From NCBI GenBank assembly GCA_001873565.1, contig MNZJ01000039.1, forward strand, positions 1 through 59,143: 59,143 bases of DNA, given 5' to 3'. This DNA is from Candidatus Peregrinibacteria bacterium CG2_30_44_17 (GTDB lineage Bacteria > Patescibacteriota > Gracilibacteria > UBA1369 > UBA12470). Every line of letters begins with the position of its first letter. The first letter of the stretch is position 1. The notes under the pieces are model-generated. The model worked only from the letters and a program-made list of their open reading frames with translations. It had not been told where the DNA came from and did not search any database. The position numbers and the translations under genes were made by a program. Below are positions 20,544 to 29,476 of the stretch, piece after piece.

Positions 20544-21263
20544 ATGGAAATTATCCCAAGCATATACTTACAGGAAGGGAAGATAGTCTCTTGGTACAAA
20601 GGTAAGCAAAACGACCAAAAGAAAACATACTACAAAGAGCCTCTGCACATGGCTCGGTTCTTCGCGTCGGAAGGTGCGATCAAACTGCAAATAATAGATT
20701 TGGGTGGGACTTTGTCGGGATCATTGCAACATACCAAAATGATTAAGAAAATCTGTAGCGGTATTAAGTCGGAGGTCCAACTCGGCGGAGGTATAAGAAC
20801 CATGGAAGAAGTTGAAAGGGCTTTTGAATTAGGCGCAACAAGAGTCCTGCTCGGAGTGTCATCGATCAAGATATTAAAAGAAGCCCTGACAAAATACGGA
20901 CCGAATAAAATAATCATGGGAATCAAAGGAAACTATAATAAGGTCGACACAGATTTCACCTTGGACGGAGGGGTGCCGGAGGTCACAGACTTGGCGAAGC
21001 AAATACAGAAGGTTGGAGTGACGCAATTGATTTACAAAGACATGCAGACGGAAGGAGCTATGTATCATCCCAATTTCGACATGATAGAAAAGATTATTTA
21101 CGAAACAGACGGCAAAATGGACATATATAGTTCCGGAGGTACTGCGGACGAATATGACTTAAAGCTCCTGCGAGAAACCGGAACAAAAGGCGTAATTATC
21201 GGCAGAGCATTCATGGAGAACGCGCTGGATTTTAGAAAACTGAGAGAGATGTATGAAGGTTAG
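20544..21263 (+). CDS. Divergent HisA-like (beta/alpha)8 paralogue, catalytic residues altered
   Basis: HisA-like [26 protein letters not shown] and [22 protein letters not shown] replaces PAIDIIDGK. Confidence 0.75.
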
Positions 21264-21817
21264 GTTTTGGACCGTTTTTTAAGCTCATCGACGATGTCAG
21301 ACAACCCCATATCCCTTGCAGCAAGCAGGACTAACATGTGATACGTGAGGTCCGCACATTCTTCAGAGAGACGCTGGTCGGATTCATCAAGGGCAGCTCT
21401 TACAACCTCATCGGCCTCTTCGGTAATTTTCGGACAGATGCCATCAAGACCTTTCTCAAACAAAGAAGTTGTATATGATCCTTCTGGCATTTTTGATTTG
21501 CGGTCAACTATCAAACTCTCGAGTGTTCGCAAAAAAGCGTTAGAGAAACAACTTACGCTTCCTGTGTGACAAGTAGGTCCTTTTGGATTAACTTTGATTA
21601 GAAGCGCATCACTATCACAATCATCAACAATTTCACATACTCGCAGAATATTGCCGGAAGTTTCGCCTTTCATCCAGAGAGTCTTGCGACTGCGACTCCA
21701 AAAGTGGACGTTGCCGGTTTCCTCTGTTAGACGCAGAGCATCGTCATTCATATAGCCAAGCATAAGTACCTGTTTGGTATTAACATCTTGAATTATTGCC
21801 GGTATCAACTTTTTCAT
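21260..21817 (-). CDS. hisIE: Bifunctional phosphoribosyl-AMP cyclohydrolase / phosphoribosyl-ATP pyrophosphatase
   Basis: [46 protein letters not shown]. Confidence 0.95.
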
Positions 21818-22566
21818 AATCTTACGGTTATATTTTTAGATCTTAAAAATTCTTTGGCCTCACGAATCGAATATTCAGAGTAGTGAAAAATGCTTGCAGC
21901 GAGCAGTGCGTCGGCACCGGCAGAGGCACCTTCGTACAAATGCTCCAAATTGCCAACTCCACCCGATGCGATCACGGGAATTTCAACATTCTCGGAAATT
22001 AATCTTAGTAGTTCAAGATCGTACCCTTCGTAAGTACCATCGGCATCAATTGAGTTAAGACAAATTTCACCGGCACCAAGACGAGCCACTTCCTGCGCCC
22101 AAGTAAGGGCATCAATACTGGTTGCAACACGTCCGCCATTGATAACAACTTGAAAACCGTTGGAGACACGCAAAGCATCTATTCCTACAACAACACATTG
22201 GGATCCGAAAGCGCGAGCACCTTCGCTGATGAGCGAAGGATTTTTCACAGCGGCTGAGTTTATAGAAACTTTCTCAGCCCCGGATAATAAGACGGACCGC
22301 ATATCACCTACAGTACGAATACCACCTCCGACAGAGAACGGTATGAAGATCTCTTTGGCAACTTGTCTAACGACATCAAGCATAATTTCCCTGCCACGAG
22401 GAGAAGCGGAAATATCATAAAAAACTATCTCATCCGCACCTTGTTCATAATACTTACGCGCAGCCAGGACGGGGTCTCCAATATCTACGTTTTTCTGGAA
22501 CTTTATACCTTTCGTAAGGCGCCCGTCACGCACATCAAGGCATGGAATAATACGTTTGGCTAACAT
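21814..22566 (-). CDS. hisF: Imidazole glycerol phosphate synthase subunit HisF
   Basis: [49 protein letters not shown]. Confidence 0.97.
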
Positions 22567-23255
22567 GATAAGGCTTGTTTAAGTGTTAATGTCCCCTCGT
22601 ACAAAGCTTTGCCAATAATAGCTCCATTTGCGCCAAGTTCACGCAGTTGCTTAATATCGTCAATACTTGAAACTCCGCCGGCAACAATTATTTCAAAACC
22701 TTTGTTAAGAAACTGTGAGACAGCATCTGTGTTAACTCCGGCAAGCATGCCGTCACGACTGATGTCGGTAACAATTAGAGTGCGTATGCCAACTAGTCTC
22801 ATTCTTTGCAAAAAATCCTCTATCGATATATCAGAAGTCTCACGCCAACCACGTATGGCAATGAGGCCATCCTTGATATCCAATGAGATCACGATTCTGT
22901 TATCACCAAAATCACTAATAATCCGCTGTATCAAGCTTGTATCATCAACTGCAGCTGTGCTCATGATGATACGCTCAGCTCCGGAATCAAGAAGCATTTT
23001 GGCATCATTGTAAGTACGAATCCCTCCGCCGACTTGTTTTGGCACATCAATTCTGGAGATGGTGTCAAAATTCACAGGCAGGCCTTGTTTGGCTCCATCC
23101 AGGTCAACAACATGGACCATACCGGCTCCGTCATTTTGAAAAGTCCGCGCAACTTCAAGCGGATCTAGGTTGTACTTTTGTACATTGTCATATTCGCCAC
23201 GAGTAAGCCTAACGCATTTGCCGTCGATAATGTCTATTGCCGGATAGATTTTCAT
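22560..23255 (-). CDS. hisA: HisA, ProFAR isomerase (start at MKIYPAIDI)
   Basis: [50 protein letters not shown]. Confidence 0.95.
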
Positions 23256-23830
23256 AACTCGCAAAAATTAAGTAATAATCGTAGGCCCACCTCTCCGGAT
23301 TTCTCGGGGTGGAACTGCACACCGTAGAAGTTGTCTTTTTTTAGGGCAGAGGCGAAATGGTATCCATAATCGGTCTGTGAGATAGCATAAGGCGTCTCTA
23401 CGCAGTAAGAGTTCACAAAATAAAAATAAGCATCATCGGAGATTCCTGCAAAAAGAGGATCATTGTAAATCTGCGAGACAGTATTCCATCCGATCTGAGG
23501 CACTTTAAGATCACATGTGAATTTTCTCGCTTCGCCATCAACGATATCAAGGCAAGCAGTATCATTCTCTTCGGAATAAGGCATCAAAAGCTGCATCCCA
23601 AGGCAAATTCCAAGAAATGGGCGAGTAATAGTAGGAAGCACTGCGTCAAAGCCGGTAGCACGTAACATCGCCATTGCACTGCCGGCAGCACCGACACCCG
23701 GAAAAATAATTTTGGAATCATCTCGAAGCTCGATAGGAGACGAAATGATCTCGTATTCTTGTCCTAATTTTGTAAGCGCATTCGCAACACTTGCAAGATT
23801 ACCTGCGCCATAGTCAATGATTTGAATCAT
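23252..23830 (-). CDS. hisH: Imidazole glycerol phosphate synthase glutamine amidotransferase subunit
   Basis: IDYGAGNLASVANAL, FLGICLGMQLL, GVQFHPEKSG. Confidence 0.96.
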   Translation of the reverse strand: MIQIIDYGAGNLASVANALTKLGQEYEIISSPIELRDDSKIIFPGVGAAGSAMAMLRATGFDAVLPTITRPFLGICLGMQLLMPYSEENDTACLDIVDGEARKFTCDLKVPQIGWNTVSQIYNDPLFAGISDDAYFYFVNSYCVETPYAISQTDYGYHFASALKKDNFYGVQFHPEKSGEVGLRLLLNFCEL

Positions 23831-24411
23831 AATGTTCCTTTTGTAGATGGTAATAGGTCGGGATTCTTCATGTCCTTGGATATGGCCATTTTCATCGCTC
23901 TGGCAAAAGCCTTGAAAATAGCTTCGATTTTGTGGTGTTCATTCCTTCCATATTTGAGTTCTATGTGTACATTCGCAATGAGGTTATCAGCAATCGCCTG
24001 AAAAAAATCTTGTAGGAGTTCGGTAGGGAACTGCCCAACGTATTCGCGCTTTGGCTTGTAATTGAATACGAGATAACTGCGACCTCCCAGATCAAGTGCA
24101 CACATAGCCAAAGTTTCGTCCATAGGGAGCAGGAATCCATACCTCTCAATGCCTTTCTTGTCACCTAGGGCCTCCCTAAGGGCTTGGCCAAGACAAATCC
24201 CTATGTCTTCAACAGTGTGGTGTTCGTCGATATTCAGATCCCCATTCGCTTTTACAGCAACGTCTATGCCAGAGTGTTTCGCAAAAAGCTCAAGCATGTG
24301 GTCAAAAAATCCAATTCCGGTGGAGATGTCGCGCTCTCCTGTTCCATCAAGGTTTACGGACACCTCTATTTGAGTCTCGTAAGTTTTACGTTTGACTGTG
24401 GATTTACGCAT
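23827..24411 (-). CDS. hisB: Imidazoleglycerol-phosphate dehydratase (monofunctional)
   Basis: TGIGFFDHMLELFAKHSG, DEHHTVEDIGICLGQAL, GRNEHHKIEAIFKAFARA. Confidence 0.96.
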   Translation of the reverse strand: MRKSTVKRKTYETQIEVSVNLDGTGERDISTGIGFFDHMLELFAKHSGIDVAVKANGDLNIDEHHTVEDIGICLGQALREALGDKKGIERYGFLLPMDETLAMCALDLGGRSYLVFNYKPKREYVGQFPTELLQDFFQAIADNLIANVHIELKYGRNEHHKIEAIFKAFARAMKMAISKDMKNPDLLPSTKGTL

Positions 24412-25894
24412 TTGCAATTGTGGTTAAAAAATTACCATTCAGTTCTCCCTTAATTCCTCGTATGCCAATGTTTGATGCAAGTTCCATGTCGCTCTCGCGA
24501 TCACCAACAACAAAAGACGCGGCATAATTCATAGGGGTCGTATCCAAAAACTTGCGAACCATGCCGATTTTTGGTTTGCGACACTCGCAGTTGTCTTGCG
24601 GGAAGTGTGGACATATAAAAACATCATCAAACTCTATGCCGACGTCGCGCAGATCTCGAATCATCTTGTCCTGAACGAGCCAAAAATTTTCTTCGGGGAA
24701 ACTGTCGGTACCGAGACCATCTTGGTTGGTCACCATGACAAGCATGTAGCCTTCCTTTCGCAGTTTTCGTAGTCCCTCGATAACTCCTGGCAGCATCTCA
24801 TATTTTTCCAGCGAGTCATTCTGGAAATCTATTTGGTTCTCAGAGAGGATAACGCCGTCACGATCAATGAATGCAACTTTTTTGAGAAGTTTCGCAAGTT
24901 CGGTTAAGAATCGATCATTCTCGTAGGTGGTGCCAATAGAAATCCTCAAGCAATTCTCCATCTTCGGCATACTACTGCGATCCCTAATAACAACGCCGCA
25001 CTCTTGGAGAGCACGTTGGATATCGGATGCATTAGGTACTTTAAAAACTAAGAAATTCGCATCAGAAGGAAGTACGGTAAGGCCGAACATCTGCAGGGCA
25101 GACTTGACGCGATCTCTCTCGCTTAAAATCGAAGTCACATCAAATCCTTCACGCAAAACACCTGCGGCAATCTCTTGAGATGGCACCGGCACGTTGTATG
25201 GTGGCTTAACCTTGTTTAGAGCATCAATAATCTCCTCGCAAGCGATTGCAAATCCTACGCGAACTCCGGCAGCACCCCAAGCCTTGGAAAGCGTTCTCGT
25301 AACAACAAGATTTTTGTATCCCAAAACTTCTTTCGCCAAAGATATATCGCCTGCGAATTCAATATAAGCCTCATCCACAACGACAATTCCGTCAAACCCT
25401 TCGCACAGTGCAAAAACATCCTGTTCCCGAATCAAATTGCCGGTTGGATTATTTGGGCTACACACAAAAATAATCTTAGTATCCGGGACACAAGCCGAGA
25501 GCGTAGTCTCAACATCAATCTGGAAATCATCTGTGAGCATTATAGAAATCACTTGAACATCATTAATGTCAGCGCAGACACGATACATGCCATAAGTTGG
25601 ATCAAGGGTGATAACACAGTCCCTCTTGGGCTCGCAAAAAACACGAAATAGCAGGTCGATCACCTCATCAGAACCACTTCCTGCGAATATGTTTGAACTT
25701 GGAATGCCAACAAAATCACTATATAGATTCCTGACTTCTGTAGAATATGGATCAGGATATCGATTGTACCGCCCACGTGGATTTTCATTAGCATCAAGGA
25801 GTATACCGGTATCCGCATTGGCCGTTTGTCTAGCCGAAGTATATGCCTTGAGATTGGCAATATTAGGCCTAAAAAGTTTTGTAACGTCTTTCAT
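24404..25894 (-). CDS. hisC: Fusion: histidinol-phosphate aminotransferase (HisC) + HisB-N-type HAD histidinol-phosphatase
   Basis: HisC: LDANENPRGRYNRYPDP, SGSDEVIDLLFR, VTRTLSKAWGAAGVRVG; then VAFIDRDGVIL, VTNQDGLGTDSF and Zn loop CPHFPQDNCECRKPK in one 496-aa ORF. Confidence 0.93.
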   Translation of the reverse strand: MKDVTKLFRPNIANLKAYTSARQTANADTGILLDANENPRGRYNRYPDPYSTEVRNLYSDFVGIPSSNIFAGSGSDEVIDLLFRVFCEPKRDCVITLDPTYGMYRVCADINDVQVISIMLTDDFQIDVETTLSACVPDTKIIFVCSPNNPTGNLIREQDVFALCEGFDGIVVVDEAYIEFAGDISLAKEVLGYKNLVVTRTLSKAWGAAGVRVGFAIACEEIIDALNKVKPPYNVPVPSQEIAAGVLREGFDVTSILSERDRVKSALQMFGLTVLPSDANFLVFKVPNASDIQRALQECGVVIRDRSSMPKMENCLRISIGTTYENDRFLTELAKLLKKVAFIDRDGVILSENQIDFQNDSLEKYEMLPGVIEGLRKLRKEGYMLVMVTNQDGLGTDSFPEENFWLVQDKMIRDLRDVGIEFDDVFICPHFPQDNCECRKPKIGMVRKFLDTTPMNYAASFVVGDRESDMELASNIGIRGIKGELNGNFLTTIANA

Positions 25895-27111
25895 TGTTTT
25901 TTGAAATTAGTAAATCTTAATGATACAGCCTTTGCGTGAGCGGGCAGGCCTTCTAGATCCGCAAATCTAGGGACGAACGAAGCACTGTTTGTGTCAGTTG
26001 CTTCCGTGTATTCTGTGCGAATCATGAAGTCCTCCACAGACACAGGAGACTGAAATCTGGCAGCACCTCCGGTTGGGATGACGTGATTGGAGCCCGAGAC
26101 TCCGTAATCTCCCATTGGGACGCAAGTGTTCTGTCCGATAAATACAGCTCCACCTTGAATCTCCATCGAATCCCCTCTGGAATCTTTTGTCATGACTTCA
26201 GTGTGTTCAGCCTTGTACCAATTTGCGAAATCGATACCTTCGTTGATGGAATTAACAAGTACAATGAACCCATTCGCCTCAAGATCGGAAATCTCTACAG
26301 CCAACTTCTTACTTGTAGTGACCAAAACACATGGGCTATCAGCCCCATGTTCCAACTGAGACAGAAGATCAGCTCTGATTAATTCAGCGTTAGCAGTCTC
26401 ATCTGCTAGAACAAGGATCTCTGAAGGCCCTGCGAAAATATCCACGCCGCATTTATCTCCGAGAAACATTTTGGCAGCGGCGACATATTTGTTGCCGGGT
26501 CCGAAGATCTTATCTACGGGTTTTATAGAATCTGTTCCATAAGCCATGCCAAATACCGCTTGAGCCCCACCTACTTGATAGACCTCATCAATACCGACAA
26601 GTTTTGCAGTAGCTAATGTGATTGGCGGAATACCTTTATCTGCAGCATTAGGAGGAGTGCATAGAACAATCCTAGGCACACCGGCAACTTTTGCAGCAAT
26701 GCCAAGCATTAATACGCTGGATGGATAAAAAGCAGTTCCGCCGGGGACGTACAGTCCAACACTGCTGATAGGAGTTGAGACAAGTTTGAAACTATATCCA
26801 TCTCCATTCACTTCGATGTCGCCTTTCGAGGCTAGAACAGCTTCGTTTACTTTGCGAATACGGCGAGCAGCTGTTTTTAGCATTGCAAGATCGTCTTTGG
26901 CAATCGAATTATACGCGGCATTCATCTTCGCAGGTGATGCCAGGAATCCATCAATCCTAATCTTATCGAACATCAAAGTGAGTTCGCGAAGAGCATCGTC
27001 TCCACGATTAATGACGTCAGATTTTATCTCAAGTACGGTTCCTATGACAGCTTCCGCATCAAAAGATACCCTTTCCCGTTTTTTAGCATTTTTTGGTGTT
27101 AGAATCTCCAT
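25891..27111 (-). CDS. hisD: Histidinol dehydrogenase
   Basis: VGLYVPGGTAFYPSSVLMLGIAAKVAGV, GPGNKYVAAAKMFL, GPSEILVLAD, LEHGADSPCVLVT. Confidence 0.96.
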   Translation of the reverse strand: MEILTPKNAKKRERVSFDAEAVIGTVLEIKSDVINRGDDALRELTLMFDKIRIDGFLASPAKMNAAYNSIAKDDLAMLKTAARRIRKVNEAVLASKGDIEVNGDGYSFKLVSTPISSVGLYVPGGTAFYPSSVLMLGIAAKVAGVPRIVLCTPPNAADKGIPPITLATAKLVGIDEVYQVGGAQAVFGMAYGTDSIKPVDKIFGPGNKYVAAAKMFLGDKCGVDIFAGPSEILVLADETANAELIRADLLSQLEHGADSPCVLVTTSKKLAVEISDLEANGFIVLVNSINEGIDFANWYKAEHTEVMTKDSRGDSMEIQGGAVFIGQNTCVPMGDYGVSGSNHVIPTGGAARFQSPVSVEDFMIRTEYTEATDTNSASFVPRFADLEGLPAHAKAVSLRFTNFKKQ

Positions 27112-27665
27112 TTTTTTGTAGAGTTAGGATTGGAAATCAAAACAGCCTGAGACTCCAAGACCGTGGCGATAGGTACGAGATTATTATCCTTAAGAGTGCT
27201 GCCTGTTTGCACAAGATCGCACACTGCGTCAGCAAGGCCCATAGCAGGTATAACTTCGACAGACCCTTGGACTTCAATGATCGAAGCATTGATTTTGTTC
27301 TTCTGTAAAAAAGACCTGAGCAAGTTGGGGAAAGAAGTTGCAATACGTTCTCCGTTAAGGGCTGTAATAGAGATATTCGATGGCCCTGCGATAACCAGAG
27401 AACACTTGCAAAATCCAAGTTCCTTAATGATGTCGACCTTGGATTGCTTCTCGAGGATGGCGTTTGTACCAACAATACCGAAATCGATAATGCCTCGTTC
27501 AACAAATTCTGGAATATCCTTTTGCCTTAGAAACAAAATTTTAAAATCCCCAGCAAGAATCATGAGTTCGCGACCATTTCGTGGCACCTCGATGCCTAGC
27601 GAAGCAAGATATTCAATGCTAGGTGTGGTCAGCCTCCCACCTTTTTGTATTCCTATTTTAAACAT
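27099..27665 (-). CDS. hisG: ATP phosphoribosyltransferase, short form (start at MFKIGIQKGG)
   Basis: IGIQKGGRL, DFGIVGTNAILE, EVQGSVEVIPAMGLADAVCDLVQTGSTL; about 188 aa, no C-terminal regulatory domain. Confidence 0.92.
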   Translation of the reverse strand: MFKIGIQKGGRLTTPSIEYLASLGIEVPRNGRELMILAGDFKILFLRQKDIPEFVERGIIDFGIVGTNAILEKQSKVDIIKELGFCKCSLVIAGPSNISITALNGERIATSFPNLLRSFLQKNKINASIIEVQGSVEVIPAMGLADAVCDLVQTGSTLKDNNLVPIATVLESQAVLISNPNSTKKWRF

Positions 27666-28923
27666 AGCCTTTGATATAAGAAATAAGTTGATTAACAGGT
27701 ATAGTTTTTTGATTGCCACTATCCATGAATTTGACGGTCACCTCGCTTTTTGCACGTTCATCTGGGCCACTTACGACTACAAAAGGAACCTGTTTTTTCG
27801 CAGCGTATTTGAATTGTTCGGAAAGCTTAGCAGGTTCGAAATAAATCTCGGAATTAATTCCGGCGCAAACCAATTCATTATAAATGGCCAAAGAAGCCGC
27901 AGTGCTGACGGAGTCAAATAGAGTAACTAGCACCTTGGAACTCAAAGGCACATCGGCAAGTCTATTCATTTTTTCGAGTGCAAGCATTATCCTTTCAAAT
28001 CCAAAAGCGACGCCAACACCGGAAAAATCTTCTTTGCAGAAAAGCCCACAAAGGTCATCGTATCGTCCGCCGGCACAGAGTGTGCCAAAGTCCACATCGT
28101 CACTTACAACTTCATAAATTATGCCTGTATAGTAATCCAAGCCACGTGCCAAACAAGGATCGAATTCGATGTACTTATCATCAATACAAAGATCTTTGCA
28201 CAGCCCCATGAATTCTTCTATTTCACTCATGTCATAAGCAGAGAAATCACCTTTTGAAAAAGCATCAAACAGCTCGGTAATTTTGTTTTGAGATACGCCA
28301 ATAGAAGACAATTCGTTTTTCACGCCGTCTTCGCCAATCTTAGCCATCTTGTCGATGATACGTATGAGGGCCAAAGGATCATCATCCAAGCCAAAAGAGT
28401 CCAAGATAGCGTTCATAAGCCTTCTGGAATTTACTTTTATACGGAAATTTTCGAATCCCAGCTCTTCAAAAACACTAACAATAATACGTGCAACTTCAGC
28501 CTCGGCGAGAAGGCTCTTTGTGCCGATAACATCTATATCGCATTGATAGAATTCCCTGAGTCTGCCTTTCTGAGGTTTCTCAGCACGCCATACGCGTTGA
28601 ATTTGATAACGCTTAAAAGGCATAGGCAAATTCGAGTAGTTTGCAGCCACGAGCCTGGCAAAAGGTACGGTAAGATCGTAGGGGAGTGCAATGCCTCGAT
28701 CACCGGAGTCTTTGAAATTGTAAGTCAATCGATCACCCTCTTCTCCATACTTCCCAAGGATAGTCTCGGCGTAGTTGATTACGGGAGTTTCTATGGTGTC
28801 GTATCCATACTTCCTAAATACGGAGCGCATAACATCCATGACGTAATCTCGTTTCGCCATATCTGTTGGGAGGAAATCGCGGGTGCCTTTCAAAATTTTC
28901 GGATCAATAATTGTTCTGGACAT
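27658..28923 (-). CDS. hisS: Histidyl-tRNA synthetase
   Basis: ILKGTRDFLP, PYDLTVPFAR, RYQIQRVWRAEKPQKGRLREFYQCDIDVIG, LARGLDYYTGIIYE, AGGRYDDL, C-terminal anticodon-binding-like domain. Confidence 0.93.
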   Translation of the reverse strand: MSRTIIDPKILKGTRDFLPTDMAKRDYVMDVMRSVFRKYGYDTIETPVINYAETILGKYGEEGDRLTYNFKDSGDRGIALPYDLTVPFARLVAANYSNLPMPFKRYQIQRVWRAEKPQKGRLREFYQCDIDVIGTKSLLAEAEVARIIVSVFEELGFENFRIKVNSRRLMNAILDSFGLDDDPLALIRIIDKMAKIGEDGVKNELSSIGVSQNKITELFDAFSKGDFSAYDMSEIEEFMGLCKDLCIDDKYIEFDPCLARGLDYYTGIIYEVVSDDVDFGTLCAGGRYDDLCGLFCKEDFSGVGVAFGFERIMLALEKMNRLADVPLSSKVLVTLFDSVSTAASLAIYNELVCAGINSEIYFEPAKLSEQFKYAAKKQVPFVVVSGPDERAKSEVTVKFMDSGNQKTIPVNQLISYIKGYV

Positions 28924-28945: not shown

Positions 28946-28969
28946 AAAAAAAGCTCGGAATCGAGCTTT
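28946..28969 (-). terminator. Attenuator-type intrinsic terminator in the his operon leader
   Basis: Minus strand aaagctcg-attc-cgagcttt then a U run; lies between leader ORF and hisS start, with no upstream same-strand gene. Confidence 0.85.
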
Positions 28970-29010
28970 GGGTAAGTGAGTACGCAGAAATGTAGTACCA
29001 GCGCCTCACT

Positions 29011-29067
29011 TTAACTGTGGTGATGAGTCATATATCTTGGTGTCGAATTGTTCTGGTTCTGAGTCAT
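29011..29067 (-). CDS. his leader peptide MTQNQNNSTPRYMTHHHS
   Basis: 18 codons plus TAA with three consecutive His codons (cat cac cac); between promoter and terminator. Confidence 0.8.
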   Translation of the reverse strand: MTQNQNNSTPRYMTHHHS

Positions 29068-29092
29068 AGCGTTTTAATTGATTAACACGCTA
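29067..29092. promoter_or_regulatory. 26-bp near-perfect palindrome, candidate operator
   Basis: tagcgttttaattgattaacacgcta; self-complementary except one arm pair and the centre; directly downstream of the his -10. Confidence 0.7.
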
Positions 29093-29094
29093 CC

Positions 29095-29123
29095 ATAATA
29101 TCAGCTTCGCAAAAGGCTGTCAA
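29095..29123 (-). promoter_or_regulatory. sigma70-type promoter of the his operon
   Basis: Minus strand TTGACA-N17-TATTAT. Confidence 0.85.
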
Positions 29124-29173: not shown

Positions 29174-29476
29174 ATGCGAAAAGGTGAAGACAAACATCAT
29201 TGGGAGAAAGAACTTACTGGTTTATGTAAGGCTCTTCTAACAATGAAAACAGTAACGGAATGTAAGCACTTCCTACGTGACATATGTACGATAACGGAAA
29301 TGCGTGCAATCACGGAGAGGTGGCAGGTTGCACAAATGATAGACGAGAAAATTCCATACAGGAAAATTACAGAACAAACAGGAGTCAGTACGGCCACGAT
29401 CACTAGGGTAGGTAGGTGGCTTACGCACGGAGAGAACGGATACAAAACAGCAATAAGAAGACTCAAGAAGGGTTAG
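29174..29476 (+). CDS. TrpR/YerC-family transcriptional regulator (probable start at MRKGEDKHHW)
   Basis: FLRDICTITEMRAITERWQVAQMIDEKIPYRKITEQTGVSTATITRVGRWL is TrpR/YerC-like. Confidence 0.88.
   Translation: MRKGEDKHHWEKELTGLCKALLTMKTVTECKHFLRDICTITEMRAITERWQVAQMIDEKIPYRKITEQTGVSTATITRVGRWLTHGENGYKTAIRRLKKG

Follow-up and report, generated by a model that had tools for sequence, protein, structure and literature searches.

Organization of the his operon and its leader region

We analyzed a 59,143-nt stretch of DNA (hereafter, the window) from Candidatus Peregrinibacteria bacterium CG2_30_44_17. Its minus strand carries a his operon of nine genes. The first structural gene is a HisRS-family paralogue, hisS2 (27658..28923; TIGR00442, 394 bits, above the cut-off), and the remaining genes are hisG, hisD, a hisC-phosphatase fusion, hisB, hisH, hisA, hisF, and hisI(E) (21260..27719). 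The standard bacterial code suits the genes of the window. We consider the hisS copy of the operon to be a paralogue because the genome has a second, higher-scoring hisS (457 bits), the canonical one, on a different contig (G000:C2:56015-57229). The score of hisS2 exceeds the hisS cut-off and falls under the hisZ cut-off, and the HisG encoded by the operon is short (206 aa). It is possible that hisS2, paired with this short HisG, serves as HisZ or as a second synthetase. At 24404-25894, hisC is fused to a HAD-type histidinol-phosphatase domain of the hisB N-terminal type.

The region upstream of hisS2 contains, on the same strand, a promoter, a short open reading frame (ORF), a hairpin, and a terminator. 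The -35 hexamer TTGACA (29118..29123) and the -10 hexamer TATTAT (29095..29100) are separated by a 17-nt spacer, and the same TTGACA-17-nt-TAnnnT layout was found ahead of the operator in relatives. The promoter has 11 of 12 consensus matches; such a site is expected about once per 600 bases and is unremarkable alone. The leader ORF, MTQNQNNSTPRYMTHHHS, comprises 18 codons from the ATG at 29067 to the TAA at 29011 and ends in HHHS, with the His codons at 29025-29017. No obvious Shine-Dalgarno sequence was found upstream of it. The 5' strand of a helix (AAGUGAGGCGC, 29001..29011) begins 5 nt past the last His codon, and the 3' strand (GCGUACUCACUU, 28974..28985) ends 4 nt (ACCC) short of the stem of an intrinsic terminator. 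This terminator, AAAGCTCG-ATTC-CGAGCTTT-TTTT (28946..28969), has an 8-bp stem (28969-28950) and is located 22 nt upstream of the hisS start at 28923; the distance from the leader stop to that start is 87 nt. Only 8 of 20,000 dinucleotide-shuffled versions of the region from the -10 hexamer to the terminator contained an ATG-started HHH ORF that closed before the terminator (chance 4e-4). The 162-nt leader RNA folded better than every one of 200 shuffled versions (z -3.1).

A divergent yerC/hisR gene encoding a TrpR-family repressor is located on the plus strand (29174..29476; TIGR02531, E 3.6e-26; Trp_repressor domain). The protein matches 3G1C, the E. eligens HisR. The yerC frame is open from 29123, overlying the -35 box of the his promoter, and we consider the ATG at 29174 the likelier start because homologues align only from residue 17-18. 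Between the -10 hexamer and the leader ATG we found a HisR-type palindromic operator, AGCGTGTTAATCAATTAAAACGCT (29068..29091, minus strand; core GTTA-N6-TAAA). It is a near-perfect 24-bp inverted repeat with arms of 12+12 nt (92%), and the chance expectation for such a repeat in the window is 0 (<=3 mismatches). Besides this operator, the 1.17-Mb genome contains a single other site matching GTNTTAN6TAANAC (G000:C8:248-265, locus L245). In relatives, GTTTTAN6TAAAAC (GTTTTAnnnnnnTAAAAC or near variants) was found at the corresponding place, after TTGACA-~17-TAnnnT. The core TTTA-N6-TAAA is that of the published HisR consensus, cacTTTAnnnnnnTAAAgtg (PMC9413887), from which the GTTA-N6-TAAA of the window departs at one position. 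Binding of the window operator by HisR with histidine is inferred from the motif and the family, and there are no binding data. As the palindromic HisR operator faces a divergent hisR, control of the operon looks dual.

The initial annotation, made from the sequence alone, had described TTGACA-N17-TATTAT, an HHH leader, a stem, and an intrinsic terminator before hisS. All of these parts are present in the sequence; the gene named hisS is a second member of the HisRS family. The operator (29091-29068) and the divergent TrpR-family gene had been missed, and they add a second layer of control.

The position of the leader ahead of a HisRS-family gene and a his operon would also suit a T-box or a his leader of the proteobacterial type. 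Against this, searches with Rfam families including RF00514 his_leader and T-box gave no match at the gathering score and nothing relevant at a relaxed E-value in the window, and nothing was found in relatives either. We consider this explanation to be very nearly excluded.

A free-standing leader in a relative of the same family

The genomes available numbered 89 for the order and three for the family. In one family member (G065) there was no match to hisG and no his operon was seen. The other (G066) has a full his operon behind a TTGACA-17-TAACAT promoter. Its leader, MKTGKTTISDRAITPSGFDVHHHIARS (ending ...VHHHIARS before the stop codon), is followed by a 16-bp hairpin, four bases, a U-tract terminator, and then hisS2. 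The gap between helix and terminator is thus 4 nt, as in the window. An HHH ORF occurred in 15 of 20,000 shuffles of the G066 leader (chance 7.5e-4). The leader peptides of G066 and the window have only the His run in common. This shows that the architecture, including HHH and the terminator, is conserved between the two loci and the leader sequence is not. The distance from the last His codon to the helix is 5 nt in the window, 7 nt in G066, and 5-7 nt in the hisR-embedded versions described below. G066 was the only locus besides the window in which a free-standing HHH leader was found.

In folding, the 3' strand of the G066 helix is able to pair with the 3' arm of the terminator (GACCGUU/AAGCGGUC), giving partial exclusion. 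A long-range AAGACCG-CGGUCUU pairing in G066 was set aside, since it requires the completed 3' arm of the terminator and is missing from the window. We also do not claim that the short leaders derive from the tail of hisR, as the homology scores were at the level of shuffles (p 0.2-0.8).

An attenuator-like element at the 3' end of hisR in other Patescibacteria

Elsewhere in the order, most his operons begin with hisR (yerC), which is followed after ~20-30 nt by an intrinsic terminator. The distance from the terminator to the start of hisS or hisG is mostly ~25-35 nt at these loci, which in most of them leaves no room for a second promoter. One exception is L031, where a promoter-operator is located between hisR and hisG and the terminator is absent. 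A U-tract terminator ahead of the next gene is retained in most relatives. The 3' end of hisR in relatives encodes ...HW(L/F/M/V)HHGxGGYxLxLxR, and the Gly-Gly-Tyr-x-Leu codons pair with the spacer directly upstream of the terminator.

To evaluate this helix we used a covariation test on a plain MAFFT alignment of 19 loci, counting one named 19-bp helix. In 77.8% of cells the helix was paired, compared with 39-47% when it was slid by 1-3 columns and 69.0 +/- 1.3 in shuffles. Double changes were found at 11 of the 19 pairs (36 double-change cells versus 18.9 in shuffled alignments), and the covariation score was 0.374, compared with at most 0.165 for slid and 0.237 +/- 0.018 for shuffled versions. 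The named helix came from single-sequence folds of alignment members, which biases the comparison against slid versions. Two observations argue that this bias is not the whole effect, namely the shuffle control and an out-of-sample hisR-hisG junction (L237) that has a long helix built from different codons. RNAalifold predicted no structure on the plain alignment, which we attribute to register shifts in the alignment; counting the named helix was more successful.

Single-locus folds of the hisR-embedded element gave z values of -1.4 to -7.0. Pairing between the Gly-Gly-Tyr codons and the spacer had a significant duplex energy relative to shuffled spacers in L017, L138, L025, L010, and L033 and not in the others; we preferred the alignment covariation test to this one. 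Of 353 genomes of the class, 25 contained matches to a covariance model of the hisR-embedded element, including loci outside the building set. The model had no match in the window. When it was run on the window together with the G066 locus, its one match was a weak one on the G066 leader, spanning the first His codon through the terminator (E 0.33).

The loci can be described as three designs. In design (i), the HW-x-HHG codons are located within hisR. In design (ii), a His-rich tail (HHH, HQHH, or HGHHSH) is appended to hisR, in the distant lineages L209, L210, L211, L206, and L216, and hisG is located downstream of the His-tailed hisR. The window and G066 represent design (iii), a free-standing HHH leader. 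Designs (i) and (iii) have a common geometry in which the helix starts 5-7 nt past the last His codon, so that the helix would stay clear of a ribosome whose A site holds an early His codon. It is possible that HW-x-HHG in design (i) is conserved for protein function rather than for sensing; this account fits design (ii), with its low-complexity tails, and design (iii), with its free leaders, less readily. When L241 is counted together with the five lineages above, the His-rich tails (HHH, HQHH, HGHHSH, and HHHH) are located right before the stop codon and upstream of the terminator.

At nine further loci (L012, L013, L022, L025, L026, L028, L035, L235, and L242), hisR, mostly with helix and terminator, precedes non-his or divergent genes. 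The genes there are HisG-like, radical SAM, AstE/AspA-like, SLOG-like, aminotransferase-like, and acetyltransferase-like (the last two by eye). Genes outside histidine synthesis may therefore also be under the control of the hisR-embedded attenuator.

Folding of the leader with a ribosome in place

When the window leader was folded with a ribosome in place, the probability of the helix was 0.97, 0.82, and 0.42 with the first, second, and third His codon in the A site and 0.0 with the ribosome at the stop codon. For the G066 helix, the corresponding values were 0.97, 0.97, and 0.83, and again 0.0 at the stop. The model thus predicts that helix formation in the window depends on whether the ribosome is stalled or at the stop.

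In many relatives the same contrast was found in the pairing of the 5' arm of the terminator, for which we masked 12 nt from the A-site codon and cut the RNA before the 3' arm of the terminator. With the ribosome at the first His codon and at the stop, respectively, this arm was paired with probabilities of 0.94 and 0.05 in L138, 1.0 and 0.01 in L207, 0.85 and 0.11 in L019, and 0.70 and 0.07 in L017. Among the loci with His-rich tails, the values were 0.83 and 0.02 (L210), 0.85 and 0.04 (L211), 1.0 and 0.01 (L216), and 0.71 and 0.02 (L206). The E. coli trp leader, our positive control, gave 0.71 at the stall and 0.03 at the stop. The E. coli his leader gave 0.69 and 0.68, so that a known attenuator was missed and folding of cut RNA must be regarded as a limited test. 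At many HW-x-HHG loci only the first His codon, or the first two, gave the effect. In folding, the helix overlaps the terminator and excludes it or competes with it directly at ~15 loci of relatives. In ~9 others (for example L018, L022, L028, L023, and L010), it is flush with the terminator and does not sequester it. The model predicts that the equivalent helix acts as a genuine antiterminator in the HHH-tail loci and in the overlapping subset of relatives.

The initial annotation had left the antiterminator pairing unclear. In folding of the window, the hairpin was ribosome-dependent, yet it stands 4 nt from the terminator, and no classical exclusive antiterminator was found: pairing of the 5' arm of the terminator was 0.01 at His and 0.07 at the stop. 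The window would work like a leader-peptide attenuator without meeting the defining feature of a helix that shares the 5' arm of the terminator. In equilibrium folding, the terminator of the window was paired at ~0.95 at every ribosome position. Since the E. coli his and trp leaders are also at ~1.0 everywhere, this probability is uninformative for the window, and we replaced it with the folding of cut RNA.

The main rival explanation is a constitutive partial terminator that sets a fixed his level, with HisR alone regulating and HHH incidental. In its favor, no exclusive antiterminator was found in folding of the window, the HisR gene adjoins, and an operator is present. Against it, HHH is located at the matching place in two unrelated leaders, each with a chance of less than 1 in 1,000. 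Several distant relatives also have an HHH hisR tail immediately before an antiterminator overlapping the terminator, and the covarying helix starting 5-7 nt past the His codons would be left unexplained. We consider this rival unlikely.

A second rival is that translation of the leader acts by another route than antitermination, namely ribosome-RNA polymerase coupling, mRNA stability, or re-initiation at hisS. The lack of overlap between helix and terminator in the window and the short distance from leader stop to hisS start favor it, as does the proposal that leader ORFs boost downstream translation through re-initiation (PMC4833913). Against it stand the retention of the terminator before the next gene in most relatives and the direct competition between helix and terminator at the ~15 loci. 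This rival seems highly improbable to us.

Proposed mechanism

We regard ribosome-mediated His attenuation downstream of HisR repression as the likely mode of control in the window. The logic of ribosome-mediated his attenuation had been put forward in the initial annotation, and it is well supported by the architecture of G066, by the covarying helix in ~20 relatives, and by folding. This support is comparative; there is no wet-lab evidence, and both ribosome stalling and conditional termination are inferred.

Under this proposal, histidine-bound HisR (yerC) would repress initiation at the operator over +1, and transcripts that escape repression would be tested through translation of the leader. 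When charged tRNA-His is scarce, the ribosome would stall on HHH, and the RNA exposed 5 nt past the last His codon would fold into the 29011-28974 helix beside the terminator, leading to readthrough into hisS-hisG-hisD and the remaining genes. When tRNA-His is ample, the ribosome would reach the stop codon and mask the 5' strand of the helix, so that no helix would form and the terminator would work. A helix located 0-4 nt from the terminator stem would have to block the terminator, presumably by a steric clash in the exit channel of the polymerase. Such steric action is needed because the window and the ~9 flush hisR-embedded relatives have no overlap between helix and terminator; antitermination by an adjacent helix remains an unproven inference.

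Discussion

The window resembles the proteobacterial his leader (hisL, RF00514) and the trp leader in having a short ORF in which regulatory codons stand in tandem, hairpins whose formation depends on the ribosome, and a terminator before the operon, and many relatives show the same stall/stop contrast in folding as E. coli trp. It differs from them in lacking a covariance-model match and an overlapping antiterminator, in having a HisR operator, and in belonging to another phylum. The E. coli his leader has seven His codons (MTRVQFKHHHHHHHPD), compared with three in the window.

For bacilli, His-leader attenuators have been described ahead of hisS paralogues (Naville and Gautheret 2010, PMC2965389), and Ashniev et al. 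2022 (PMC9413887) reported his-operon attenuators with three to five His codons in the Bacillus cereus group, Peptostreptococcaceae, and Erysipelotrichales. These Firmicutes systems are similar in combining a His-codon run, an attenuator, and a terminator, and one of them stands ahead of hisS paralogues. In PMC9413887, both the search for attenuators and the reported cases concern lineages that lack HisR. Here, in contrast, a single promoter has both HisR and a likely attenuator, and most relatives have the sensing codons inside hisR. The main HisR survey did not consider this arrangement, since it sought attenuators only where HisR is absent. The HisR (YerC) regulons of that survey share with our loci a TrpR-family protein, a TTTA-N6-TAAA palindrome at his promoters, and a hisR that is sometimes the first gene of the operon. 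The survey covered Firmicutes, Actinobacteria, Proteobacteria, Synergistetes, and a few others; the word Patescibacteria is absent, and no attenuator at the 3' end of hisR is described in the sections consulted (PMC9413887).

The E. coli trp operon combines the TrpR repressor with attenuation at the trpL leader. The loci described here are similar in pairing an amino-acid-sensing TrpR-family repressor with leader attenuation; they differ in that the amino acid is histidine rather than tryptophan and that in relatives the repressor and the leader are one ORF. The open-licence literature that we searched contained no report of ribosome-mediated attenuation in Patescibacteria or the candidate phyla radiation, which is weak evidence of absence.

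On balance we lean towards a bolder reading, in which the his genes of Patescibacteria are controlled by a compound switch whose repressor gene is its own leader ORF. HisR would sense free histidine. Charged tRNA-His would be sensed through translation of His codons close to the 3' end of hisR, either HW-x-HHG or an appended HHH tail, by way of an antiterminator formed by hisR codons. The window and G066 would represent a split version, with hisR elsewhere and a short HHH leader doing the sensing, and the same element would also stand before non-his genes.

If attenuation operates as proposed, these bacteria with reduced genomes would have transcription and translation coupled closely enough for the charging of a tRNA to be sensed, and this sensing would be joined to the HisR repressor at one promoter. 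The flush helix raises the question of whether a hairpin adjacent to a terminator, without overlapping it, can block it. The hisR-embedded form, if true, would provide a concrete case in which the coding end of a repressor gene serves as leader to the very operon under its repression.
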